Below are positions 30,681-44,939 of a DNA stretch of 64,000 nucleotides, one piece after another; within the stretch, counting starts at the first letter, position 1; each line of letters starts with the position of its first letter. The notes beneath the pieces are model-generated. The model did not search any database. It was not told where the DNA came from and worked only from the letters and a program-made list of their open reading frames with translations. Source of the DNA: Bdellovibrio sp. (lineage in GTDB: Bacteria > Bdellovibrionota > Bacteriovoracia > Bacteriovoracales > Bacteriovoracaceae); assembly GCA_016187935.1 (NCBI GenBank), contig JACPIU010000020.1, positions 124,001 through 188,000 on the forward strand, given 5' to 3'. Both the position numbers and the translations under genes were made by a program.

Positions 30681-31151
30681 ATGCCAAATCCAAAAAAAAT
30701 TTCCCTGCATTTTCCCCATCGAGATGAAGGACCTTTTTTTGCCACAGATCTTCCCGTCACAATGGCGGAAATTAACTACGGAGGACATTTAGGTCACGAC
30801 TCGGTCCTGACTCTGATGCATGAGGCACGAGTATCTTGCTTAAAGTCCCATGGATTATCTGAACTGAATGTCAGTGATACAGGCCCCGCCGTCGGTCTGA
30901 TCCTAAGTGAATTACAAGTACAATATTTGACGGAATCATTTCACGGAGATGTCCTCAGAGCGGAAGTCTTGCCTTTTATTCCCGAAGGGCCGCGCTGGTT
31001 TATGGCGCAACGCCTGGTCAGGCTTAGCGATCAACGTGAAATTGCCCGCGCAATTATTGGGATGACTTTCTTCAGCTACGAAAATAAGAAAGTACAACGG
31101 GCCCCCGATTCTCTCATGCACCGATGCCAGAACTGGCAATTACCTGTCTAG
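30681..31151 (+). CDS. Hotdog-fold acyl-CoA thioesterase (YbgC/FadM type)
   Basis: 156 residues of the 4-hydroxybenzoyl-CoA thioesterase/FadM type: ATDLPVTMAEINYGGHLGHD is the substrate-binding and catalytic helix, in which the usual aspartate is replaced by an acidic or polar neighbour (AEINYGGHLGHD), then LTLMHEARV and GLILSELQVQYLTES. It probably hydrolyses an acyl-CoA in the cytosol; substrate unknown. The ATG at 30681 follows AGAAGG; an in-frame upstream extension overlaps murI and is not supported. Its end overlaps the convergent 312-residue gene by 12 bases. Confidence 0.82.
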   Translation: MPNPKKISLHFPHRDEGPFFATDLPVTMAEINYGGHLGHDSVLTLMHEARVSCLKSHGLSELNVSDTGPAVGLILSELQVQYLTESFHGDVLRAEVLPFIPEGPRWFMAQRLVRLSDQREIARAIIGMTFFSYENKKVQRAPDSLMHRCQNWQLPV

Positions 31152-32078
31152 CCTGTCTGATAAGACTTCTTTTCCGAACTCTTCCAACTCATGCCCAAGC
31201 GCCTGGACTTCGCGGTAAAACTCCAGGAACTTTTGGGAGGTCAGAGGAATGCCTGAACGAGGCAGACGCGCCTCTTCTTCGTGTAATTCACTGGTCATTT
31301 TTTCCACCAATCCCACCAGATCACCCCGATGGGCACCGCCGATTAATCCTTGGGCCTGGGCTTTCATCCAAAAGCCGGATAAAAAAGTGAGATCGGTGGG
31401 AGTGTAATATCCCCGTTGAGCACTCACCAAGGCCTGCCATAATTGGGCCAGCAGGCCCCGAATCTCAGCGTCTTGATATTTCTTCAAGGTCTTATTTTTG
31501 CGCGCCAATTCTAGGATGGTATCGAGCAAGGTGGCCATATCGCGTCCGCGACAAGATTCCAGCTCCCAAAAGGTGCGTAATAATTTTTGCACCCGCTCGG
31601 CCGGCATGAGATGTTCACCGGCCAATTCCGCCCCCATGGCAAGAATCACTTGGTGATCTTCCTTGGCCAAGCTCGGACTTAGACCAACCGTGAGGAGCGC
31701 TCTTAAGTCTTGTATTTGGGTGTAGGAGGGGCCGAAAGGCTCAGGCCATTTATTATGGGGCAGGAGTTTACGAAAGGCCCCTTCACAGCGTTTATTGGCC
31801 TGTCCTGCCAAGATCATGGCCTGATCAAATTGATGGGTGGAAATGGCGCTTGGGACTTTGGCCGCTGGTTTTTCCTCTATGGCCCGTTTGGACACTTGTA
31901 AATCGACGGACCTTTGTGGAGAGATGGTAATTTCTTTTTGCACTTCCCGATACTGCGAAAAAGACACGCTGTTGTCTTCACCATCGTAAAAGATCCAGAT
32001 CACTCCGCTCACGACAACAATCATGAGTATGACCTGGACTCTTCTATCGTAAAAAATCTTATACCAGCGCTTACCCAC
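31140..32078 (-). CDS. Single-span membrane protein coupled to SIF/RYR paralogue 3
   Basis: 312 residues, no family recognised. A basic N-terminus (GKRWYKIFYDRRVQ) precedes one membrane span (VILMIVVVSGVIWIFY), then a helical periplasmic domain rich in Leu, Glu and Gln with two cysteines (NKRCEGAFRK, ELESCRGRDMA). The GTG start shares its G with the TAG stop of the upstream paralogue 3, so the pair is translationally coupled and probably interacts. Type II membrane topology, N-in. The convergent thioesterase gene overlaps the 3' end. Confidence 0.7.
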   Translation of the reverse strand: MGKRWYKIFYDRRVQVILMIVVVSGVIWIFYDGEDNSVSFSQYREVQKEITISPQRSVDLQVSKRAIEEKPAAKVPSAISTHQFDQAMILAGQANKRCEGAFRKLLPHNKWPEPFGPSYTQIQDLRALLTVGLSPSLAKEDHQVILAMGAELAGEHLMPAERVQKLLRTFWELESCRGRDMATLLDTILELARKNKTLKKYQDAEIRGLLAQLWQALVSAQRGYYTPTDLTFLSGFWMKAQAQGLIGGAHRGDLVGLVEKMTSELHEEEARLPRSGIPLTSQKFLEFYREVQALGHELEEFGKEVLSDRLDR

Positions 32079-34786
32079 TATTCCGCGATGTTAAATATTC
32101 TTCGATATCGTTGCGAAATAAGTTGGAAGATACTGATCTCTTCCCCCTTATTAATATCGTCTACCGTAACTTCTAAATCATCGATACCGTCGTTGTTATC
32201 CTTTTTAAGGTTTTGGGCGATAGATGGGTCTGTCTTGGCCGTTTCAAAACCGCCGTCGATGACTACTTCTGGTTTATGTCTCGAAGTAGCAGTTATTGCA
32301 GTCTGCCTTTGCTGTATTCTCTCTGGGGCCACTCCCATTGAAAATGATTTATTTCTCTTAAAATTCTCGCGTGCACTGGACGACATCTTGCTCAAAGCTG
32401 CTTCGGCAATTTTTTTCATTTGATTAAAAAATCCTTGCCGATTCTCCTTAAGCTTCATCGGTTTGTTTTTACCAATCTCTTTCACCTTGCCTAGGAATGA
32501 AGGATCTATTTTTTCTTTAGCTTCATCGGAAAGTGCATTGTAGGCATTGATCATATCGTTTTTAGTCTTTAACATCTGCTGATAATTCTCGACCTGTTTT
32601 TGATCATATAACTTTTCCAACTTGTCCATCGTGGCCTGTGTATTTGCGATGTCTTTACCCATGGTCTTGGCCAAGTTCATAGCTTCATTTGAAATTCCTC
32701 TCGCCCCACTCACCTCTTTCGCCAACAATATGGCACGATTGCCCTGTTGGGCAAGAAGTGGCGGCAGATTGGGAACTTTCGCTAATTGTTCCATTTGGGA
32801 CTTGGACTGAGAGGGACATTTTCCTCCCTCTTCTTTACCAAAGCATGGAAACTTTTTATTTTTCGGGAGAGTAAACGACATACCTGTGGATGTTGCCGCC
32901 AAGGCATCCTCAACAGATGATTTAAATCGTGAGACAATCCAGTTTGTGAAGGAAGCAAGGACACTCTTATTCTCTTGAGTATCATTGTCGGCATAATTTC
33001 TGTATTTAATTCCGCCATCGATTGAACTTTCATCTATAACAGGTGGAGGGGTTGGAGTTGGAGTTGGAGTTGGGGTTGCAGTATCATTGGAAGCCCCTGG
33101 CGCTGGTGTTGCGGTTGCTCCAACATTTGGGGTTGCAGTTGGGGTTGGGGTCGGTCTTTCTTCAACACTTGTACCCTCGCCTTTCATATTTTTCCATTTA
33201 GAAAGAAGCTCATTGATCGTTGCAATACGACTATCCATTTCAGAGATAACTCCCATTGTCACACCCCAAGCAGCAATCGCCAAAACAGACATGACACTGA
33301 AAAGAACTATTCTCTGAGGAGGACGGGTTAAAAATTTGCTGGAAAGATTGGTATAGCCGCTGAATAGAACAAAGAGCACAACGAGAACCGCAGCTGTGAG
33401 ACCTATACCCTTGATCCAATCACCGGCAGAAGCTTCCGCCGCTGGGAAAATAAAATCTATAATTTTCATCATCCAGTTTTTACCTTCCAAGGCAACTTTC
33501 TGCTCTTCACTCATGGGAGTAAAGAAACGTTGCACATCGACTAACTTACACATGGCCCCACAAGCTCCTCCTGGAGGCGTGCAATGGGGAAAGAGATTAC
33601 CTTGCAAATTGATGCTCACCGACTTCATCTCGGCGCGTACAGCTGTGTATGCAATAGTGGCCGGCTCAGTTGAAACGCCCATACAAGTCGTGGTCCACCC
33701 ATCACAAATCACTTCAATCCGGGCCATATCAAGATCACTCAGTGCAGCTGGCGGAACACAAGTATTGGAAAAAACCTGATTGTACTCTGTCTGATACGCA
33801 GTAATATGTGACATGGTATAAAGAGAACCTGCTTTACACCAATTACAATCTATCTCTACTACGGCCCCCCCTGCACTGGCGGCAGCACCCTTCGCCATAA
33901 GTTCCAATTCGACATTCAGGGCCTTCAGTGTTGCAAGGCTGCTCGTCATTGCAGCGTTATCTGAAATCGTGAATCCAATTTCAATACCCGTGGCGGTTAA
34001 AAACGACACCGCCGACGCTCCCTGGAGCCAAGCTTTCGTGATAGCAATGTCACGTATATTATTCAAGGCTTCTTTTTGTTTTTCCAAGGCCCCAAACTGG
34101 GCCGAATTGATCACCTTCTTCTCATCAACCGTGAGTTGTGCTTCCTGGGCCGCAAATTCGCTTTCACTTAATTCTGCCGTACCACTGGTGTCTTCCGCTT
34201 TTTTGCGCGATAACCCCTGCGCTGCCTCACATTTTAAATAGGCTTCCTCATTCGCGCCTAATTGATTCATGGCATCGGCGTACCTAATCCAAGCTTGCAC
34301 TTCCCCGGCCAAATAAAATGCTCCTCCAGCTGCGGCCGCAATGGTACCGGCGGCACATTTCCCCGTGCAACCAAGCACCAGAAAAAGTGAGACAAAGGCC
34401 ATGGCAAGAAACATTATTCCAGTCAAGACATCGGCAGTTATAAAGAGGGCCGAATCCTCTGGCTTGTTAGCTTTAATAGCAGCAAATTGATCTGTGAGTT
34501 TATCCGAATCCTCTTTATTCTCTTCGGAAAGTTTGGCGTCCTGCTCTGCCTTTCCCTCTTCACCTCGCTGCCTCAAGGCGGCACAATCTATTTCCTTCCC
34601 TTCTTGTAACCGCCTAATCTCAGCGCAAGACGTACCATTTGCCTTGGCAAACTCCTCATCACATGTATCCGCCGCATAGGCCACACCAGAAATGACGTTT
34701 GGAAAAATATTAAAGGTCAAAAAAGGCATCGCAAGCTGAATATAAAAAAGCGAAGCTACGCAGGCGTATAGCAATAATTTTTTCAT
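32078..34786 (-). CDS. Exported five-TM protein, SIF/RYR paralogue 3
   Basis: About 902 residues. It repeats the plan of the tandem genes at 20697-24925: signal peptide (LLLYACVASLFYIQLAMP, cleavage near AYAADT), a charged segment, two spans (GIMFLAMAFVSLFLVLGC; AAAAGGAFYLAGEVQAWI) with a cysteine just after the first, a third span, a long loop with about ten cysteines, two further spans (IGLTAAVLVVLFVLFSG; VLFSVMSVLAIAAWGVTMGV), a coiled segment (MDSRIATINELLSKWKN), a (Pro-Thr)n linker, a lysine-rich helical domain and the terminal motif EEISIFQLISQRYRRI. The larger loop distinguishes it. The ATG at 34786 begins a proper signal peptide; the in-frame extension to 34858 does not. A possible TTGACT/TATTTT promoter lies just upstream. 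Coupled to the 312-residue gene. Confidence 0.72.
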   Translation of the reverse strand: MKKLLLYACVASLFYIQLAMPFLTFNIFPNVISGVAYAADTCDEEFAKANGTSCAEIRRLQEGKEIDCAALRQRGEEGKAEQDAKLSEENKEDSDKLTDQFAAIKANKPEDSALFITADVLTGIMFLAMAFVSLFLVLGCTGKCAAGTIAAAAGGAFYLAGEVQAWIRYADAMNQLGANEEAYLKCEAAQGLSRKKAEDTSGTAELSESEFAAQEAQLTVDEKKVINSAQFGALEKQKEALNNIRDIAITKAWLQGASAVSFLTATGIEIGFTISDNAAMTSSLATLKALNVELELMAKGAAASAGGAVVEIDCNWCKAGSLYTMSHITAYQTEYNQVFSNTCVPPAALSDLDMARIEVICDGWTTTCMGVSTEPATIAYTAVRAEMKSVSINLQGNLFPHCTPPGGACGAMCKLVDVQRFFTPMSEEQKVALEGKNWMMKIIDFIFPAAEASAGDWIKGIGLTAAVLVVLFVLFSGYTNLSSKFLTRPPQRIVLFSVMSVLAIAAWGVTMGVISEMDSRIATINELLSKWKNMKGEGTSVEERPTPTPTATPNVGATATPAPGASNDTATPTPTPTPTPPPVIDESSIDGGIKYRNYADNDTQENKSVLASFTNWIVSRFKSSVEDALAATSTGMSFTLPKNKKFPCFGKEEGGKCPSQSKSQMEQLAKVPNLPPLLAQQGNRAILLAKEVSGARGISNEAMNLAKTMGKDIANTQATMDKLEKLYDQKQVENYQQMLKTKNDMINAYNALSDEAKEKIDPSFLGKVKEIGKNKPMKLKENRQGFFNQMKKIAEAALSKMSSSARENFKRNKSFSMGVAPERIQQRQTAITATSRHKPEVVIDGGFETAKTDPSIAQNLKKDNNDGIDDLEVTVDDINKGEEISIFQLISQRYRRIFNIAE
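33051..33077 (-). repeat. Hexanucleotide repeat coding for Pro-Thr
   Basis: Four and a half units of GTTGGA (plus-strand reading) inside paralogue 3, with more degenerate GTTGGG units downstream. They encode the alternating Pro-Thr linker between the membrane part and the C-terminal domain. Unit length is two codons, so slippage would change linker length without breaking the frame. Confidence 0.75.
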
Positions 34787-35003
34787 TAAAAATACCCCAA
34801 TGTATTGTGAGACAGTCAAGCTCACCAATAATTGTAACATTGGGTGGAAAAAGCACAAAAAAATTCTTACTCAGAAATTAAAAAGCATGGAACCTCACCA
34901 GAAAGATCTTTAATAACAGCTGGTTACATATTTAACGTTTTATAGTTCAATGAGGATAGACCTGCCTAAAAAAGCGGACATCCTGATTGAATGTCTGGTT
35001 TAA

Positions 35004-38000
35004 TTACTGGTTTTCGTCATAGCTGCCGCCATCGTCAGAATCAATCTCAACTAAACAACGGAAGCCAATATCAGTGCGCTTGTTGGCGGTTTGATTCGAT
35101 AAATCCTCATAGTATTGCCAGACGTCTTCTGTAGGCCAAGACCATGTTCCAAAAGCAGGATCACTCAAACCTATATAGTAGGCATCACATTTTGCAGTAT
35201 CTTCTCCATCACAAATACCAGTTTCACGAAAGCCTTCAGCATCGTTGGCCTGAACCCACGCAGCGCCGCCTGACGCCGTACTTGACCCCACCCAAATGGA
35301 CTGCCCGTTGGTACCATATGTTTTCACTTGTTCATCTCCCTCCGCAGCATCATACTTGAACGCATTCAGGGTATTATCCAAATCCCTAAACACGAAATCA
35401 CCAATAATCAAATAGCCATAGGCACTATGACAGGGAATCATTTCGAAATGCCATACCCCAGCGCCTGAATTATCATCAAAGCCCCCTCCGGCCACCATGG
35501 CACCACAACCTCGTGAAGTGGATTTTCCATTAGTGTTGGCAGGATTGGAAATATCATCTACGGAAGCAAAAAGATAATCAGAGTTAATGATCACATCGTC
35601 ATCATGCAGATCAGTAGTGGTAATACCATTTGTGCTCCCGATTGCAAACATGCTCTTGCCCACTCGACTATTGGGATTAACTTCCGGAAAGAGAGTATAG
35701 GCAGGCAGCCCCATGGGAAGAAAAAATCTGCCGGCATTATAGGAAGTATCTTCAAGCACCCAATTGGAGAGGGGTGCATCGCAAATATTGTCGTTCCCGT
35801 AATTGTCGACACAAGCACCGACGTTAAAATTACCTATCTCATAACTGGCGGGGTCCACATAATCCTCATATCCAGACCCCGAACCATCGATCTCGTCGTT
35901 GATATCATAAAGGCCGTCGGCAATAAGCTGATCGACATCGTAACGCGCATCCCCGTTGGATGCGGCGGCAGCATTAATTCCAATTCCATAACAACGTGAC
36001 ATTCCTCGGGAAGTGGCATTTGTATCATAAGTTGCAGAAGCGCACCGAAATCGATCACTCAAAAACTCCGCCACATTCCCTATGGCATCTTGAATACCGA
36101 AGCGAGAAACGCAACTGGCGGTTTGGGTCGAACCTGTATATACCGATGATGCTTCAATGGCAGGAAGAGAAAATAAATCCAATTCTTGAGGATAGTCCGC
36201 TGTTGAGTAACTATTCTCGAGACCACTGGCCCTCGAACTATTGCACTTTGATGAAGCATTGAGAGAAAGCCCCGTTTCAGTGGTGCTTATGTCTGAGGCA
36301 TTAATGTCATCATCCCAAAGAGAGAAAGCAACTTGATGTAAGCGATTAGGTAAGCGTTTGGTTAATCCAGATGTAAGACCAACGATGCCAGGAATTGTTC
36401 CCGTGCTGGCACAAAAATCCTTGGCGGCCTGCTGACTTAAATTAACCAAAGGCGGGTTGTGTAAATAATTATATTTTTCTACAAAATTACCTGCTTGACC
36501 ATCAACTCCCGGCGTACCAGAACCAGTTCCTTCTTTAATGGCAACCCAACCATCTGATTCGTAATCTTCATAACATGTTCCTGTTTCACGATCATAATAA
36601 ACCGCACGTGTGCTAGCTGCAGTTGTTTTCGTGATACCCAAAGTCGTGGGGCTTCCAACTGCAATACAATCCTTGGTGGCGATATTGATTCCAGTTCCTT
36701 GACAGTTATTAGTAAAATGGCAACCGGCTTCGGCGACATCAACCAAAAAATCACTACCAATGTCGTAGTACTCCACTCCACCTACGACACCGAGATCTGT
36801 ACTCCCTGGACCATAATACCGACAGCGGTAAAAATTATCTGAAGTTTTCATTTCGTATAATAAGGCCTCAGCGGAATCCAAATCATCACGGTCTTCAGAG
36901 TGCATCATCCCACAGACAATCTGATTAACGATCCAGCGATGGACAAAAGCCATATTTGGTGGAGGAGATATCAAACGCACTTGGCGATGGCTTTGTGTGG
37001 TGGCGGCAATCACACTGTCAACGATCGGCCGGACTTCGTAAAAATAGACAGTGCTCGGAACAGGGGGCGTTCTTGAAGTGGTAAAATCTTCGGTAAAGCT
37101 GGTGGCATCTGAAGCGATGGCACGAATGTTGACAGGTTTTGCATAGTCAAAAGTGGTATGGTTTGTATCACCAATGCGACGATAGACATTGTAACCCGTA
37201 ATACTGCCTGTTCCCGAAACTGTAAAGGCGTTCCACTTTAAGGTCACTGTTCCTGTGGCATTATATGTTTCAAAATCTGGATCAGTCCCGGCATCGCCAC
37301 TATCAGCGATGCTGCGGTAACAAGTCTTAGCACTAACATCGTAGTAATACTGATCAATGTCGGTGAATGTGATTTGAGCGGTACTGGGGCTTCCATATCC
37401 TATACAAGCAGCTCCCAAATTGATTCCTATGGTATCAGAACATGTCTGGATATTATCCGACTGGGAAATATTACAATAGGTATTAAATGCCGTCCAAATT
37501 AAACCACCTGTCTGCGAAGTGAGCGCTGTTGCGGCCATGGCCGTAATCGCTGCGGGATCGTTGTAAGTGTCGAGGGCCACGTCCACAAGTGCCGTTACAC
37601 TAGGAACGTCCAGAGCTGTCTGTACATCCGCCGGAGTTTCCGTCCCATCAGACACGACTTGAATGGCCCTACCAATGACGTTGACACTTAAAGCGGCCGA
37701 GGCAACCGTCTTATACTCCACCGTCACGCCAGATTCTTTTGAAGTAAAAGCTAAGTTTTGGAATTTTCCAGCATAACTAGTTTTGACATAGAGACCAACT
37801 GGTTCACTGATGGCCGATTGATATATACCTGCTTGTCCAGAAACCACCGAAGCACTCACTAAACACGAAGCATCAGCAGCTGGAACTGGACCGGCATCGC
37901 ATATCGCATCGTTGTTCCCATTTATGGCACTGACAATATCATCAGAATCAACAGTCGGAATCGAATCTTTGATGCGAATAACAATATGCCTATTCTCGAC

Positions 38001-40748
38001 CTGAATTTGAGGAGTAGTAGCGGTATCATCACTGCGGATATCAATACTAATTGGTCGAGCATCGCGGGCGGTAAAAATTACGTCGCCAATCGTAACTTGG
38101 GCCTCGGCAAGATAACAGACCGGTGAAGTTGGGGTGGTCTCATTCAAATAAATAGCATGCAGACTATCGGCGGGAAGTGTACCTGGTGCCGAAGAACCTT
38201 TACATTTCTGGCCACCATTACATTTCGATTCGCTGTAGCTACAGACATAAGGGTTGTTCAGAGGAACTTGCTTTCGATCAATTTTGGGGCCTAAGGCCTT
38301 GATATTGGCCCAACCATTGTGAATGGCCCCGGCGGAACGGATGGTGACTAAAAATGTTGTAAAGGTATCATTTCCATTGCTATCCGTAACCGTCACAGTA
38401 ATCGTACTGGAACCTGAAACCGATGGTGCCGGTGTAATGCTAAGTTCAAAATCAACGTTATCCTCTGTCACAACCCCGTCCCCAAAAGGACGTGATGTTG
38501 CTGCGTAGGGACTGGAAACACCCGCTGCCAGATTGATAATGTCGGTCCCAGTACCATCCCAATATATCAAGATACCTTCCAGGGGAACCACGGCGACATT
38601 CGAGCTATCCACTTTCACTGTCAATGTCTGCACATTTTCGGCCGAATCGCCACCCCCCTCATCGACTCTTATATGATCAATGATCACGACATCATTTTGG
38701 TTGGCGGTGTAATCGCGAATAAAACCATTACTATCAATGGACCAGTCATTGGAAGTGGTTCCAGTACTTTTCCAACACAAGGCCGATGCTTGGTCATACC
38801 AATAAACTGGTTGGGAAGAGGTATGAGACACGGGGATAATATTATTGGAACTGGGAGAGCCCGTGCCAACACAATGATTAAGCCCGCATTCCTGAGCACT
38901 CTCAAAGGTGGAATATTGGCAGATCATGGGGTTGTCATTGATGGGATTTACCGTGAATGTCACCTGTGTCGGCGCAGCCGCATCCACTGTTCCATCATTA
39001 GTGTAGTAAGAAAAGATCACGGTATCTGAAAAATTGGTGGCCGGTGTAAAAGTACAGGTTAAATCACTTGATCCTTCAGAACCACTCAAGTCCAAGCAAT
39101 TCGACAACGTGCCACTGCCTGTACTTGGCCCGGTACCCACCAGACGATAGCGTAAGAAATCTTGATAGTCGACATCGGCCCCCGGTTTTAAAGTTATTGT
39201 TCCTGCCGTGTCTTCGTCGATAATACCGCCTAAAACAAAATTCGCGGCTTGAGTAGGAGCATCGTTCACAGGGGTGATGGAAATATTCACTGTGGCCGGT
39301 CCTGCGGTTAATCCATCAGGGTCAGAGACCATATATTGAAATTGCTCTATTTTGGCTCTCCCTCCATCTAAAGTGAGAGGCATGGCCACACCTGTGACAT
39401 CAACAGGCACCGAGCCTAGGAGCAGGACTTCAAACTTTCCACTCCCTGACCCCGTATCCAGAGCGGTTTTAATGGTTTGAGCAGTGGTAACACCATTTTC
39501 AATCCGTACCGTCACCTTATTTCCTGACACACTGGTTACCGTCGCGCCCCCACCGCTGCCTCCAGAACTTAATGTCAGGGCATATTCATTCACTGTATTT
39601 TTATAAGTGCCCGGGAAAAGGGCGCGCAACCGAAGAACGCTCGCGGCCCCCCCTGCAGAAGACTCGGGGACTGTTATTGTATCGTAGAGGTAGTCATTAT
39701 TGTAGTAAGCATTACCACCCGCTGGTGTATAGGTACATTCCAAGTCAGATTCGCCACCGTTACCTAAACAATCCGGAAGGGTGGCCCCCGAAGTTGGAGC
39801 GCTCGAAAGAGCATAAGTTAACGTTGCCGTGGTATCATCCACATCACTCCCTGAACCGGAACCAGAACCGCTGATATATAAGGCCCCCACTCCTGTTCCT
39901 AGACCTATTTTCAAAGTTGTTGCGACACTACCTTCAAGGATTTCGTAATTAATGGTAGCACTCAGAGTAGGCGCGTCATTCTCGGCTTCAACATTAAAAA
40001 ACACAGTCGATGGTGATGACCATTTGCCATTGGCATATATTTGATAAGTGAAATACTCGCCGTTACCGTAAAAGTTACTCTTACCCTTCAATGAAAAAGT
40101 GCAGACTCCCAACTCTGTACAGACACACCCAGTCTGGATAGTGACATTGGATGAAATATTTTGAATATTACAAGCAGTCCCTTTGTCACTCTCAACGTCA
40201 GTGTAGGCCAAAGTCCAAGTTTGTGTAACGTCCTCATCGATATTGGCACCGTTCAGCGGAGAAATCGCCAAGAGGTTATTCACCGGCGAATCATCAACGA
40301 CCGTGACCGTAACTCCCACAATTTGTTCTATCCCCGTACCGTCTCTATCCGCAATCTTATAGCGAAATTCGGCCAGCCCAGAGAAGTTTGTATCAGGTTT
40401 AATGGTAGCACGACAAAGTCCGGCCACACATGAGCAACTAACAGGAAAAAGGCCATCTCCATCCAACGTGCTGCTGGCACTGGAAATATAGCAAGCTGTC
40501 GCAGTATCACTGTTTATATCTGAATAGGTCAGAGTAACTTGAGTTGCCCCTGAATCTTCTGCCACCGTCAAATTGCTCAATGTTCCCGTTGGTGTTTTCC
40601 TTGTCACGCCGACGTTAACGCAACTCCTGGTTTTAGAATCAAAAGTTTGATATTCCAAGCATGTCGCATCCTCCTTACCCTTTTCCGGAAGGCAAGCAGA
40701 CAAGAAAAGCACCCCTGTCCACAAAAACATTAAAAGACTTCGCTGCAT
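35004..40748 (-). CDS. Giant surface lipoprotein: cadherin-like, four-Cys modules, FN3, SUMF1-like end
   Basis: About 1914 residues. Lipobox LFLSAC (lipid cysteine at 19). Cadherin/VCBS-like beta repeats with Ca-binding-style junctions follow (VTVVDDSPVN, AENDAPTLS, TPVNDAPTQ) to about 605. A four-cysteine module occurs four times (starting near 610, 836, 1092, 1343; each C..C..C..GSP..YYD..CY-like). A fibronectin type III domain spans about 1166-1246 (VTLKWNAF, GYNVYRRIG). The C-terminal 470 residues have formylglycine-generating-enzyme-like features (FGIQDAIGNVAEFLSDRF, GGGFDDNSGAGVWH, TDIGFRCLVEID) but no catalytic cysteine pair, so it is probably a binding version of the fold. The ATG at 40748 agrees with the upstream promoter; the TTG at 40769 would lie before the transcription start. 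A surface adhesin is inferred. Confidence 0.78.
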   Translation of the reverse strand: MQRSLLMFLWTGVLFLSACLPEKGKEDATCLEYQTFDSKTRSCVNVGVTRKTPTGTLSNLTVAEDSGATQVTLTYSDINSDTATACYISSASSTLDGDGLFPVSCSCVAGLCRATIKPDTNFSGLAEFRYKIADRDGTGIEQIVGVTVTVVDDSPVNNLLAISPLNGANIDEDVTQTWTLAYTDVESDKGTACNIQNISSNVTIQTGCVCTELGVCTFSLKGKSNFYGNGEYFTYQIYANGKWSSPSTVFFNVEAENDAPTLSATINYEILEGSVATTLKIGLGTGVGALYISGSGSGSGSDVDDTTATLTYALSSAPTSGATLPDCLGNGGESDLECTYTPAGGNAYYNNDYLYDTITVPESSAGGAASVLRLRALFPGTYKNTVNEYALTLSSGGSGGGATVTSVSGNKVTVRIENGVTTAQTIKTALDTGSGSGKFEVLLLGSVPVDVTGVAMPLTLDGGRAKIEQFQYMVSDPDGLTAGPATVNISITPVNDAPTQAANFVLGGIIDEDTAGTITLKPGADVDYQDFLRYRLVGTGPSTGSGTLSNCLDLSGSEGSSDLTCTFTPATNFSDTVIFSYYTNDGTVDAAAPTQVTFTVNPINDNPMICQYSTFESAQECGLNHCVGTGSPSSNNIIPVSHTSSQPVYWYDQASALCWKSTGTTSNDWSIDSNGFIRDYTANQNDVVIIDHIRVDEGGGDSAENVQTLTVKVDSSNVAVVPLEGILIYWDGTGTDIINLAAGVSSPYAATSRPFGDGVVTEDNVDFELSITPAPSVSGSSTITVTVTDSNGNDTFTTFLVTIRSAGAIHNGWANIKALGPKIDRKQVPLNNPYVCSYSESKCNGGQKCKGSSAPGTLPADSLHAIYLNETTPTSPVCYLAEAQVTIGDVIFTARDARPISIDIRSDDTATTPQIQVENRHIVIRIKDSIPTVDSDDIVSAINGNNDAICDAGPVPAADASCLVSASVVSGQAGIYQSAISEPVGLYVKTSYAGKFQNLAFTSKESGVTVEYKTVASAALSVNVIGRAIQVVSDGTETPADVQTALDVPSVTALVDVALDTYNDPAAITAMAATALTSQTGGLIWTAFNTYCNISQSDNIQTCSDTIGINLGAACIGYGSPSTAQITFTDIDQYYYDVSAKTCYRSIADSGDAGTDPDFETYNATGTVTLKWNAFTVSGTGSITGYNVYRRIGDTNHTTFDYAKPVNIRAIASDATSFTEDFTTSRTPPVPSTVYFYEVRPIVDSVIAATTQSHRQVRLISPPPNMAFVHRWIVNQIVCGMMHSEDRDDLDSAEALLYEMKTSDNFYRCRYYGPGSTDLGVVGGVEYYDIGSDFLVDVAEAGCHFTNNCQGTGINIATKDCIAVGSPTTLGITKTTAASTRAVYYDRETGTCYEDYESDGWVAIKEGTGSGTPGVDGQAGNFVEKYNYLHNPPLVNLSQQAAKDFCASTGTIPGIVGLTSGLTKRLPNRLHQVAFSLWDDDINASDISTTETGLSLNASSKCNSSRASGLENSYSTADYPQELDLFSLPAIEASSVYTGSTQTASCVSRFGIQDAIGNVAEFLSDRFRCASATYDTNATSRGMSRCYGIGINAAAASNGDARYDVDQLIADGLYDINDEIDGSGSGYEDYVDPASYEIGNFNVGACVDNYGNDNICDAPLSNWVLEDTSYNAGRFFLPMGLPAYTLFPEVNPNSRVGKSMFAIGSTNGITTTDLHDDDVIINSDYLFASVDDISNPANTNGKSTSRGCGAMVAGGGFDDNSGAGVWHFEMIPCHSAYGYLIIGDFVFRDLDNTLNAFKYDAAEGDEQVKTYGTNGQSIWVGSSTASGGAAWVQANDAEGFRETGICDGEDTAKCDAYYIGLSDPAFGTWSWPTEDVWQYYEDLSNQTANKRTDIGFRCLVEIDSDDGGSYDENQ

Positions 40749-40966: not shown

Positions 40967-43777
40967 TTAGGGAGTGCAGAAGGGGGCCTTGGGGTCTTTA
41001 GTGCAAAGATATGATTTCAATTGTTTATTCTCGATTTCTAATTTCTCTATTTTTTTGTGCAATTCTTGAATGGCCCTGACACTCGTCCAGACAACTGGGT
41101 CGAGATGAAAATTCAAATAGCCTCTCGCTCCTGTGGTGATTGACTCAGGAATGACCGTTTGAACCTCTTGGGCCAAAATCCCGATATGCTCATCTTGGCC
41201 TTTAAGTCCAAGGGTTGCATTTTCCTTGTAGTGAAAGCGCACCGGCCTAAGTTCCAGGATTTCCTCTAGACCACGGTCATAATCAACAATGCGTTCCTTA
41301 AGCCGCGCATCGGATGTTAGGGACCAAGAGGAACTGCCGTCACTCTTATAGGCACTTCCATCCACCCATAAACCTGAAGTGGCATTAGGCAAATCGACTA
41401 ATTGATCTGGATCATGATTAATATAGACGACATTGGTAGTAAAATTTCCACCTATTAACGGTGTGTCTGAAATTGCGTTGTCGATAAACAACAAACTTCC
41501 ATTAGTTGGTGCCGCTGTTGGCCCTGCATCGGCACCAATGATGACATTGCTGCCTGTCGTAGTTAGTTGGCTTCCAGCACCGTATCCCATGATGGTATTA
41601 TTGCTGGAAGTCGTTAATTCTGTCCCAGCATTGTATCCCAGCAACACATTGTTACTCCCCGTGGTGAGTGAATCTCCCGTGAGAGCTCCCATCGCCACAT
41701 TAAACGCCCCCGCACCTAAAGCATTCAAGGTATTGTATCCAACCGCTGTATTGGAGTTGCTGGTCACTGCCCGCATTATGGAATAACCAACACCTGTATT
41801 TTGGGTAATTGCAGTACCCGTTCCGTTATCCATGATGTAGGCACCAACCGCCGTATTGTAAGTACCGATGGTGACATCATTGAGCGCATCTAACCCAAGT
41901 GCCGTATTGCCCGCCGCTGTAGTGCCCGCCAACAAAGCTCTATAACCAAAGGCCGTGTTGTTCCCTCCTGTGGTTAAGGCGGCCAAAGCTGTATATCCAA
42001 CGGCCGAGTTGTTATCCCCCGATGTTATCGCTGCCATGGCACCACTGCCAATACCGATATTGCCTAAGGCCCCAGCAGTGATCGTTGCTGTACCAACTCC
42101 CATACCTAAAAGGAGATTCGATTGTGTGCCTGAAGGATGTATTCTAGTATTCAAGTACGTCAAGAAATCATTATAAGTAAAAACTCCTCCAGCATTACCA
42201 ACGATAATTTGACCAGATGTAGGCTGTACCCCATTATTCAAGGTAATCAAGGGTTCCAGCAGCGAAGTGACGCTTTCTTTGAGCAAGGCCACCGTCCGTT
42301 CGGAAACAGGCTGCGTTTGATTTGCCACTCCTGAAAGTGGCAGCAAACCTATGGCAGCATAATCCAGAATACTCATGTAGCGCTTGCCCGCTACATCTGG
42401 TACCGCGTTGGTATCAAGTGTCTGCCACGTTTTGTCACCTCGATAATACTGAGTATTAACACCCGCAGTAATGGTGGGCTCTCTTGCACCCAACTGCGTT
42501 TGAATCGCTGATGTCACACCATCTAAATAGCCATACTCTGCGTCACTAACATTGGTGTTGGCACCGATTTTAGTTGCATCAATCCCCTGGGGAATAATGA
42601 CTTCGGCCAAAAAACCACCGGATAATTGGGGAATTTTACTCCCTGTCGTTCCTACATCCAAATCAAGGGTGCCGGTAGTCGTAATTGATGTTCCTTGCGA
42701 GGCGAATCCAACTCCTCTCGTTACAGTAGTCACCGTGCCTGTGCCAGCAACCAAGGCCCACGAAGTTCCACCGGCACCATCTGTCCGCAAAAACTCACCT
42801 ACGTTTCCACGACTTGAGGGAAACATAATGCTTGTATTCGAGCCACCATTATTGATTTTCAACGTACTCCCAACCACTAAATCATTAACGACTTCAACAT
42901 CTCCGTCGCTACTTTTCACCTTCAAAGCATCATTGTAAGTCGTCAGGTTGGAACTATAAGTGAGGTGGAAGTCACCCGTGTTGTAAAACTGAAAATCGCT
43001 AGACGCGCCAGAATCTAAAAGGGAAAATATTCCCTCTCCTACCGTTTGCGAATTTAAAATAATTGAATTGCCAAAACTAAAATCTCCACTTGCATCCAAC
43101 GTCTGAATCTGACCGGAACCAGACCCCACATTGACGGCAATGGTACCCGTGGTTGTAATGCTACTGCCTTGGTTGACCAGCCCGGTTCCTCGTGCTATCG
43201 AGGAAACACTTCCTCCACCACCTCCACCAGCCACAGGTGGGGCCGCCAACCAGGCACCATCAGCTTGCGAATAAGTCAAAACATCTCCATCATCGGCACC
43301 GGTGGTATCAATCTTTGAATAGGTCACGGCCTTGGTGGCAATCTTGTCCGAAGTCACACTGGAGTTTTGTAGTTTGGCGCTTGAAACGGTGTTGTCCAGC
43401 ATCTGAAAATTGATGGGGTACACGGTCTGCCCTGAAGCGGAACTGATAATCAGATCATAAGTTTGTTGGGCGTAAAAAGTAAGAGATGGTGATGTGACTA
43501 ACCCCACTACGGAACTGGCGCTTTGAGAAGTGATCGTCAGGGTATGATTGTTGCCCCAACCGCTCGCGGTCATTTCTGTCACCTTATCCAAATTGCTTCC
43601 CGTGATGGTTACACGATCAAAATCCACGCTAATGGTAGACACAACGGGAGTCGCTATCGATTTATTATTTTTTGTGACATCGGCCAAGGGGTTTAGATTG
43701 TTCATGCTTCCAATACATCCTGAAAAAAGGAAGCTAACCACATAAAGAAGAAAATAAATTTTCGACAATTTTTTCAC
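40967..43777 (-). CDS. Trimeric fibre lipoprotein with S74 intramolecular chaperone
   Basis: 936 residues. Lipobox FLFSGC (Cys21) anchors the N-terminus. An N-terminal IPT-like beta domain (about 40-130) is followed by a stalk with tail-fibre style segments (SVTSDKIATKAVTYSKIDT, YYRGDKTWQTLDTNAVPDVA) and a duplicated block with SSITTTGT and TSITTTGT. A head of about nine 20-25-residue repeats of the NTAxGYxAL type spans 569-752. The C-terminal peptidase S74 domain has SDARLKERI: serine 822 and lysine 827 match the self-cleaving dyad of endosialidase-type chaperones; HIGILAQEVQTVIPE confirms it. A final coiled coil (HKKIEKLEIENKQLK) is normally released. GTG start with GGGGA six bases before. 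Likely surface fibre for attachment; Bdellovibrio is known to use chimeric trimeric fibres. Confidence 0.88.
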   Translation of the reverse strand: MKKLSKIYFLLYVVSFLFSGCIGSMNNLNPLADVTKNNKSIATPVVSTISVDFDRVTITGSNLDKVTEMTASGWGNNHTLTITSQSASSVVGLVTSPSLTFYAQQTYDLIISSASGQTVYPINFQMLDNTVSSAKLQNSSVTSDKIATKAVTYSKIDTTGADDGDVLTYSQADGAWLAAPPVAGGGGGGSVSSIARGTGLVNQGSSITTTGTIAVNVGSGSGQIQTLDASGDFSFGNSIILNSQTVGEGIFSLLDSGASSDFQFYNTGDFHLTYSSNLTTYNDALKVKSSDGDVEVVNDLVVGSTLKINNGGSNTSIMFPSSRGNVGEFLRTDGAGGTSWALVAGTGTVTTVTRGVGFASQGTSITTTGTLDLDVGTTGSKIPQLSGGFLAEVIIPQGIDATKIGANTNVSDAEYGYLDGVTSAIQTQLGAREPTITAGVNTQYYRGDKTWQTLDTNAVPDVAGKRYMSILDYAAIGLLPLSGVANQTQPVSERTVALLKESVTSLLEPLITLNNGVQPTSGQIIVGNAGGVFTYNDFLTYLNTRIHPSGTQSNLLLGMGVGTATITAGALGNIGIGSGAMAAITSGDNNSAVGYTALAALTTGGNNTAFGYRALLAGTTAAGNTALGLDALNDVTIGTYNTAVGAYIMDNGTGTAITQNTGVGYSIMRAVTSNSNTAVGYNTLNALGAGAFNVAMGALTGDSLTTGSNNVLLGYNAGTELTTSSNNTIMGYGAGSQLTTTGSNVIIGADAGPTAAPTNGSLLFIDNAISDTPLIGGNFTTNVVYINHDPDQLVDLPNATSGLWVDGSAYKSDGSSSWSLTSDARLKERIVDYDRGLEEILELRPVRFHYKENATLGLKGQDEHIGILAQEVQTVIPESITTGARGYLNFHLDPVVWTSVRAIQELHKKIEKLEIENKQLKSYLCTKDPKAPFCTP
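41522..42073 (-). repeat. Tandem head repeats in the S74 fibre gene
   Basis: Encodes residues 569-752: about nine imperfect units with the pattern N-x-A-x-G-Y-x-A-L followed by a TTGxNN-like turn (for example NNTAFGYRALL, GNTALGLDAL, SNTAVGYNTL). These are left-handed beta-roll head repeats like those in trimeric autotransporters and phage fibres. DNA units have diverged, so copy number is probably stable. Confidence 0.8.
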
Positions 43778-43820: not shown

Positions 43821-43988
43821 GTAGGACTTACTTGACTCTATTATACGGACAAACTTTTCCCTCGGGTAATAATGCCAAAACTCATGCTGCCAGAAATACC
43901 AAGGACGCTTTTCTGCCCAAGTCATAGGGCAATATTCTCCATCTTCCGTGAGAGTTCATTGGGTGACAAAAAGAGTTACAATAAAATC

Positions 43989-44939
43989 ATGAAGTTACTA
44001 CTTTTGATCTCGATCTTGCTGTGGTTCGCATTTTGGCAACATCCAGCAACGGCCCAAATCAATTCCAATTTGGACAGCTCCATGCGATTGAACACCATTT
44101 CCGGAGATGAAGAATTGGTTATTATTCAAACCGTCTCGGCTTCCCGGGCCACCTTCGTCATCAGGAAGGGTGCGCGTGAAGGAGCAGTCCTTCATCAGAA
44201 AGCGCTTTTCTCAACCGACAAGGTGAGCATTTTATGCAAGGCCATTGAGGTAACAAGTGACTATTCACTTTGGCAGGTAGCGGACCCCAAAATGCAAGTC
44301 CCTTTCCAAAAACGTCAGTTCGTCGTGCTCAATACTTCGTTGGAAACCATCTGGCAAAAAATCCCACACCTGAAAGAAGAACTCACCAAGCGAGTGGCGC
44401 AAGCAAAAGCAAAACCTGTCCCTTATTGGATTATCCGTGCCGGCAGTTCCCGAGGCGTCTATGCCAGTGTATCCGAGACCGGTTCCCAGGCCTCAAGCGA
44501 GCGCGTCGGACTGCAATTTGATGGCTCCTACAATTCAAAACTCATCGAATCGGTGGATTACTCCCTGGGACTTCGTATGGACAATGAAACCAGCAAACAA
44601 GAAACCCCCAATCTGGTGATAACCACTGTGCGATACTTTCTGACCGGCGAGTTGATCTACAACTTTCCTGATTTCAGCAACACCAGCAATCACTTCTATA
44701 GTGCTGCCGGCGGCGGTATCGGCACATCACAAACTGATGTCGCCGGTGCGAAATCAGCAGGCACGGCCTTCTTAGGCCCTGTCTTTCGGTTTGGACTGAG
44801 AACTAAATTGTCTGAAAAATACTCACTCCTGGTGGAAGGTGCAGCTGAGGCCATCAGCATGAATGAAACCTTTGCCGATGGTACTCGTCAAACAACCAAT
44901 ATTGTGAATGGCAAGTTCTCAATTGGGTTGCGTTTTTAA
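43989..44939 (+). CDS. Barrel-like outer-membrane protein with N-terminal SH3/OB-like domain
   Basis: 316 residues, signal peptide (LLLLISILLWFAFWQHPATA, mature QINS). An N-terminal beta domain of about 100 residues (DEELVIIQTVSASRATFVIR, REGAVLHQKALFST, DYSLWQVAD) resembles the C-terminal domain of the protein at 25803-27047. A short helix leads to a barrel-like region (AGSSRGVYASVSETG, VDYSLGLRMDNE, SNHFYSAAGGGIG) ending in GKFSIGLRF with terminal phenylalanine. The ATG at 43989 starts the signal peptide; the in-frame extension upstream is not supported. Divergent from the S74 fibre gene. Family not recognised. Confidence 0.7.
   Translation: MKLLLLISILLWFAFWQHPATAQINSNLDSSMRLNTISGDEELVIIQTVSASRATFVIRKGAREGAVLHQKALFSTDKVSILCKAIEVTSDYSLWQVADPKMQVPFQKRQFVVLNTSLETIWQKIPHLKEELTKRVAQAKAKPVPYWIIRAGSSRGVYASVSETGSQASSERVGLQFDGSYNSKLIESVDYSLGLRMDNETSKQETPNLVITTVRYFLTGELIYNFPDFSNTSNHFYSAAGGGIGTSQTDVAGAKSAGTAFLGPVFRFGLRTKLSEKYSLLVEGAAEAISMNETFADGTRQTTNIVNGKFSIGLRF

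Follow-up and report, generated by a model that had tools for sequence, protein, structure and literature searches.

The giant lipoprotein encoded on the minus strand of the 64,000-nucleotide stretch of DNA analyzed here (the window) contains four copies of a cysteine-bearing module that a preliminary description had pointed out but could not name. We asked whether this module is a genuine domain, what it is related to, and what it might contribute to the protein that carries it. All sixteen cysteines were confirmed at the residues given for them by translating 40748-35004 (-). The claim that the four copies represent one domain was borne out by an HMM built with the genus excluded, which scored copies 1-4 at 50.6, 23.3, 41.5, and 36.5 bits, respectively, against a best score of 7.7 bits among 1000 shuffles of the giant lipoprotein. 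The divergent copy 2 belongs to the family as well: a module HMM started from copies 1, 3, and 4 and then iterated over homologous proteins found 100 domains in 28 of them, copy 2 included at i-E 7e-7. The conserved unit is longer than the 45-55 residues first proposed, spanning about 60-66 aa and ending in W-x-x-[FL]; we counted the Trp as part of the module because copies 2 and 3 stand head to tail in many relatives (..W..F.TYC..). AlphaFold models span all four copies (block pLDDT about 65-96 in model 1, which holds copies 1-3, and 82-87 for copy 4 in model 2). In each modeled copy a short strand follows C3, and the second strand of a hairpin begins at or beside C4. Fold searches with these two multi-domain models returned Ig, FN3, and FGE-type matches and hardly probed the module itself. 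No member of the family has a credible match to a named Pfam or NCBIfam family. The sole PDB sequence match of the module is Conk-C1 (E 0.1), and a search of the open-access literature found no paper on the module. We conclude that the module is a recurrent four-cysteine domain, so far unnamed.

Table 1 Features of the giant lipoprotein gene and its neighbors in the window.
Feature	Coordinates	Strand	Basis
Giant lipoprotein gene, 1914 aa, lipobox LSAC19	35004..40748	-	Translation of ORF
Two-Cys motif C30..FD..RSC43, aa 30-43, right behind the lipid anchor	40620..40661	-	Kept in most homologues
Cadherin-like / tandem-95 repeats, N-terminal, aa 58-600	38949..40577	-	Pfam/NCBIfam profiles
Module copy 1, aa 607-670, Cys 610/621/626/658	38739..38930	-	Module HMM
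Module copy 2, aa 833-884, Cys 836/843/849/878, most divergent	38097..38252	-	Module HMM
Module copy 3, aa 1088-1150, Cys 1092/1103/1115/1143	37299..37487	-	Module HMM
FN3-like domain	36960..37256	-	Model me2bad71a4c00 residues 88-186, Z about 8
FGE-type C-type-lectin (SUMF1-like) C-terminal domain (predicted), encloses copy 4	35004..36960	-	Model matches begin near aa 1263
Module copy 4, aa 1340-1405, Cys 1343/1349/1361/1392	36534..36731	-	Module HMM
S74-chaperone fibre lipoprotein, MAT-like, SDxxxK motif (SDARLK)	40967..43777	-	S74 match
Putative outer-membrane barrel, 355 aa, unnamed, divergent neighbor	43872..44939	+	Homologue flanks 25/62 related loci

In an alignment of 73 copies, the four cysteines are invariant and P27 is nearly so, and the consensus reads C-x-Y-S-x(3-12)-C-x(3-12)-C-x-G-x3-P-x(8-20)-Y-Y-D-x5-C-Y-x-S-x(4-10)-W. 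Most module copies across the relatives keep four cysteines. Among the two-cysteine copies, the retained pair is C1 and C4 in 10 clear and 5 ambiguous cases, C2 and C3 in two, and C3 and C4 in one; these cases were assigned by eye and are related by descent, amounting to perhaps six or seven independent events. Because cysteines are lost in pairs among these copies, we infer nested disulfides, C1-C4 and C2-C3, as the pairing that the sequences suggest. One exception (L045) contradicts nesting, and three loci in which C1 alone is lost (L096, L098, and L103) do not fit it.

The label "cadherin-like" for the N-terminal part of the protein holds, with Cadherin_5 (37 bits), Cadherin_4 (33.7), and tand_rpt_95 (100.8) all above the profile cut-off. 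Whole-protein Pfam and NCBIfam scans returned nothing beyond these repeats, and a PDB sequence search with the whole protein gave no match. The residue at +2 after the lipobox cysteine is Leu, which under the Lol rule we take to be of the outer-membrane type. The two-cysteine motif behind the lipid anchor resembles the YYD...C hairpin of the module and may be a minimal form of it.

The label "SUMF1-like" for the C-terminal part also stood up, both in the homologues and in structural matches. PF03781 (FGE-sulfatase) matches 27 of the 34 homologues at E<=0.1 (best 2.8e-8), and the window's own protein gives 0.021, below the cut-off. In the structure comparison, the C-terminal domain matched TaqVP (Z 15.7, 296 aligned, rmsd 4.4), Mtd (Z about 11-12; 11.1-11.8), and PorK and FGE (Z about 10-11), and on the evidence of the model its fold is that of FGE-sulfatase/SUMF1. 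PorK/GldK is likewise a lipoprotein with an FGE-like fold, but only the giant lipoprotein has Ig repeats and four-cysteine modules. PorK/GldK is part of type 9 secretion, and there is no evidence for such secretion at the giant lipoprotein. The Pfam matches in the homologues would also agree with an active formylglycine-generating-type enzyme whose substrate is docked by the modules. We consider this highly improbable, since the nearest fold is that of a receptor-binding protein (TaqVP) and the catalytic cysteine pair after GGS[FY] / GG[SG][YF] is absent in all 34 homologues, which led us to reject the enzymatic activity. TaqVP and Mtd, the latter from a Bordetella phage, are binding proteins of the FGE-type C-type-lectin kind whose loops bear inserts; in TaqVP, one of these lies between alpha1 and alpha2 (PMC6328139). 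Inserts of this sort are common in such proteins (PMC6328139) and are found here as well; in the giant lipoprotein, however, the inserts are the cysteine modules, and retroelement diversification is missing. We rejected a variable protein of a DGR, as neither a template repeat nor a suitable reverse transcriptase was found: a near-repeat search of the window's own genome with the C-terminal DNA found no long near-repeat, and the only RVT_1 in that genome is of the group-II-intron type. Its ORF lies at 7203-8411 of L151 (contig C15), within RHS-repeat gene fragments.

The preliminary description had the copies separating the domains of the protein. Copies 2 and 3 precede FN3, copy 3 directly so, whereas copies 1 and 4 sit within domains. 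For copy 1, structural matches cover model residues 5-210 yet align only about 90-140 residues; from these ranges and lengths, C1 appears to lie in the first strand of an Ig-like domain, the remainder of which would follow the module. Copy 4 is flanked, within the FGE fold, by DLLVDRFEAGC on one side and LPPLVNxxQxxAxxFC on the other. In some relatives, two more loops of this lectin domain hold additional copies, as singles or tandem pairs, one loop before RLPxRKEQ (L062, L090, and L107) and one after GNVAEW (L048/L075 and L107). The module copies are integral to the protein and are not mere spacers. By copy-specific HMMs, window copies 1-4 each fall in their own position class (74, 54, 59, and 50 bits, respectively, vs. 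30 or less), so the four-copy layout is older than these genera. The copy-4 site is probably ancestral, because proteins with just one module, also those outside the family, have it at this site where it is readable.

A profile search of genome contigs (i-E<0.01) turned up 199 copies, spread over 65 ORFs for giant lipoproteins at 58 loci. The records are without exception of Bdellovibrionota type, mostly Bacteriovoracaceae, Halobacteriovorax, and Bacteriovorax with a few Bdellovibrionaceae. In a phylum sample of 291 genomes, 62 carry the module, and 55 of these belong to the window's family; in one neighboring order it occurs in 3 of 55 genomes. As far as these genome contigs and this sample reach, the module is limited to Bdellovibrionota, an unnamed domain with about 200 copies in a lineage that includes many bacterial predators of other bacteria. 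The window's own genome carries it in the giant lipoprotein gene only; proteins of relatives contain up to eight copies, and tandem pairs occur.

Besides the insertion inside domains and the family-wide occurrence, the preliminary description had missed that the C-terminal half of the module resembles a phage tail-fibre hairpin. Single module copies match PHROG tail-fibre and unknown families (phrog_24887, phrog_31410, phrog_16233 'tail fiber protein', and phrog_9464) with a best E of 8e-5, and Vibrio phage 464E53-1 at E 5e-4 and 2e-3, while most single phage matches are individually weak (E 1-9). Phage peptides, for example GAGSPVGVVTPAWQGALYLDFTNNIGYMATTTASSGW and LTGIAAPSIAPNFVGKTYIDTQNKNVYKATGTSSAADW, align across the whole C-terminal half, and the phage hairpins share with the module the pattern GxGxPxGxxTPxxxGxxYxDTTNxxxYxxxGTxxxxW over about 40 residues. 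Five such peptides each outscore 500 shuffles, one or two of them narrowly. An hhalign comparison of the phage hairpin with the module gave 96% over the full 40 residues, a partly circular result in that the peptides were picked for their likeness to two module copies. The same partial circularity applies to a phage-only profile made of these five peptides; across 59 genomes of the family this profile found 19 places at E<=0.01 (best E 2.6e-12), nearly all of them in giant lipoproteins. In the window's own genome it gave no real match (best E 2.65), the window copies not being among the matches, and it found no cysteine-free hairpin donor there. Pfam and PDB searches with the phage hairpin returned no family and no solved relative; a viral contig scan with copy 4 alone and a plasmid search gave no match. 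The phage hairpins whose copies we read lack C1-C3 and have a mostly hydrophobic residue at the position of C4, and we saw none as an insert of an Ig or lectin domain, unlike the module with its four cysteines. Judged from these alignments, the phage tail-fibre hairpin sequence is present in the C-terminal 40 residues of the module.

This likeness might instead reflect convergence on a common beta-hairpin, the module being an independent cysteine domain made in the lineage. The shortness of the motif, the weakness of most single phage matches, and the fact that the Kunitz protein Conk-C1 matches at this very hairpin would all be expected from convergence, which we nevertheless regard as rather unlikely given that the phage-only profile is selective genome-wide and that the alignment covers the full 40 residues. 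The stretch matched in Conk-C1 is the Kunitz-like RIYYNSARKQC, and one of the 34 homologues gives Kunitz at E 0.045, which would suit a diverged Kunitz-type inhibitor acting against prey or host proteases. The likeness lies in the short YY[ND]x5C hairpin, however, whereas Kunitz/BPTI has six cysteines in a different spacing and the module has four, without a Pfam match. At E<=1, none of the 73 copies matches Kunitz_BPTI (PF00014); membership is largely refuted, and an inhibitor of this type is extremely improbable.

The reading toward which we lean, and which we hold to be moderately probable, is that the module is a disulfide-stapled relative of the phage tail-fibre hairpin and an insertable structural part of an adhesin-type outer-membrane lipoprotein. 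It would be a small extracytoplasmic domain with an N-terminal segment bearing C1-C3 and, behind it, a phage tail-fibre-type hairpin of the putative pattern P-x-G-x-[IV]-T-P-x(3-10)-G-x-Y-Y-D-x5-C4-Y-x-S-x-G-T-x-x-x-x-W, where C4 would replace the mostly hydrophobic residue of the phage hairpins. Stapled by the two nested disulfides, so short a unit could fold without a large core. As to the direction of evolution, we infer that in an ancestor the module was probably an insert in an outer-membrane lipoprotein, within its FGE-type C-type-lectin domain; later duplication within proteins would have placed it at the edge of an Ig-like domain and in tandem sites before FN3, and in some species further duplication would have taken it into two more lectin-domain loops. 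The module would most likely act as a strut that is rigid, resists proteases, and enlarges loops, and it would shape and present the binding face of a long adhesin contacting prey cells or surfaces, a role suggested by the architecture and the neighboring genes.

Alternatively, the module itself might bind ligands such as glycans, with the YYD, CY, and W aromatics forming a binding face and multiple copies raising avidity. The strong conservation of these aromatics in the alignment, the tandem pairs and high copy numbers, and the adhesin-type host proteins are consistent with this. We consider it unlikely, because the same aromatics lie at the hairpin strands, look structural, and are common to the phage hairpins, and because no credible carbohydrate-binding family is matched, one of the 73 members giving SusG_CBM58 at E 0.05. 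The module ties Bacteriovoracaceae surface proteins to phage tail-fibre parts and to a phage-receptor-type fold, and the 65-residue module together with the lectin domain offers concrete targets for the question of how Bacteriovoracaceae recognize prey. A more specific scenario, which is conceivable though we give it only tentative credence, is that a captured phage tail-fibre hairpin was given disulfides and became a plug-in that bacteria of the predator lineage place, singly or in tandem pairs, in the loops of a phage-receptor-like lectin domain. If this is true, it would offer a means of diversifying a prey-binding protein without a diversity-generating retroelement.

The S74 fibre gene lies between the putative barrel gene and the giant lipoprotein gene, an order also found in L096 and L103, and the barrel may be a functional partner of the giant lipoprotein. 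In B. bacteriovorus, S74 and C-type-lectin MAT fibres serve at the prey interface (PMC10769870). These MAT fibres are also surface adhesins of a predator lineage, with C-type-lectin or S74 tips (PMC10769870), and at our locus an S74 gene directly adjoins the giant lipoprotein gene. The giant lipoprotein itself is not an S74-group MAT fibre: a profile scan found in it no S74 chaperone domain, which that group has at its C-terminus, and it carries cadherin/Ig/FN3 repeats. Downstream of the giant lipoprotein gene, 32078-34858 and 31140-32078 (-) encode proteins of 926 and 312 aa without a known family, which among the related loci are kept only in the closest relatives, L067 and L068. In L075 and L107, the upstream S74 gene is replaced by that of a 698-aa lipoprotein with a sequence at its end that resembles a proprotein-convertase P-domain.
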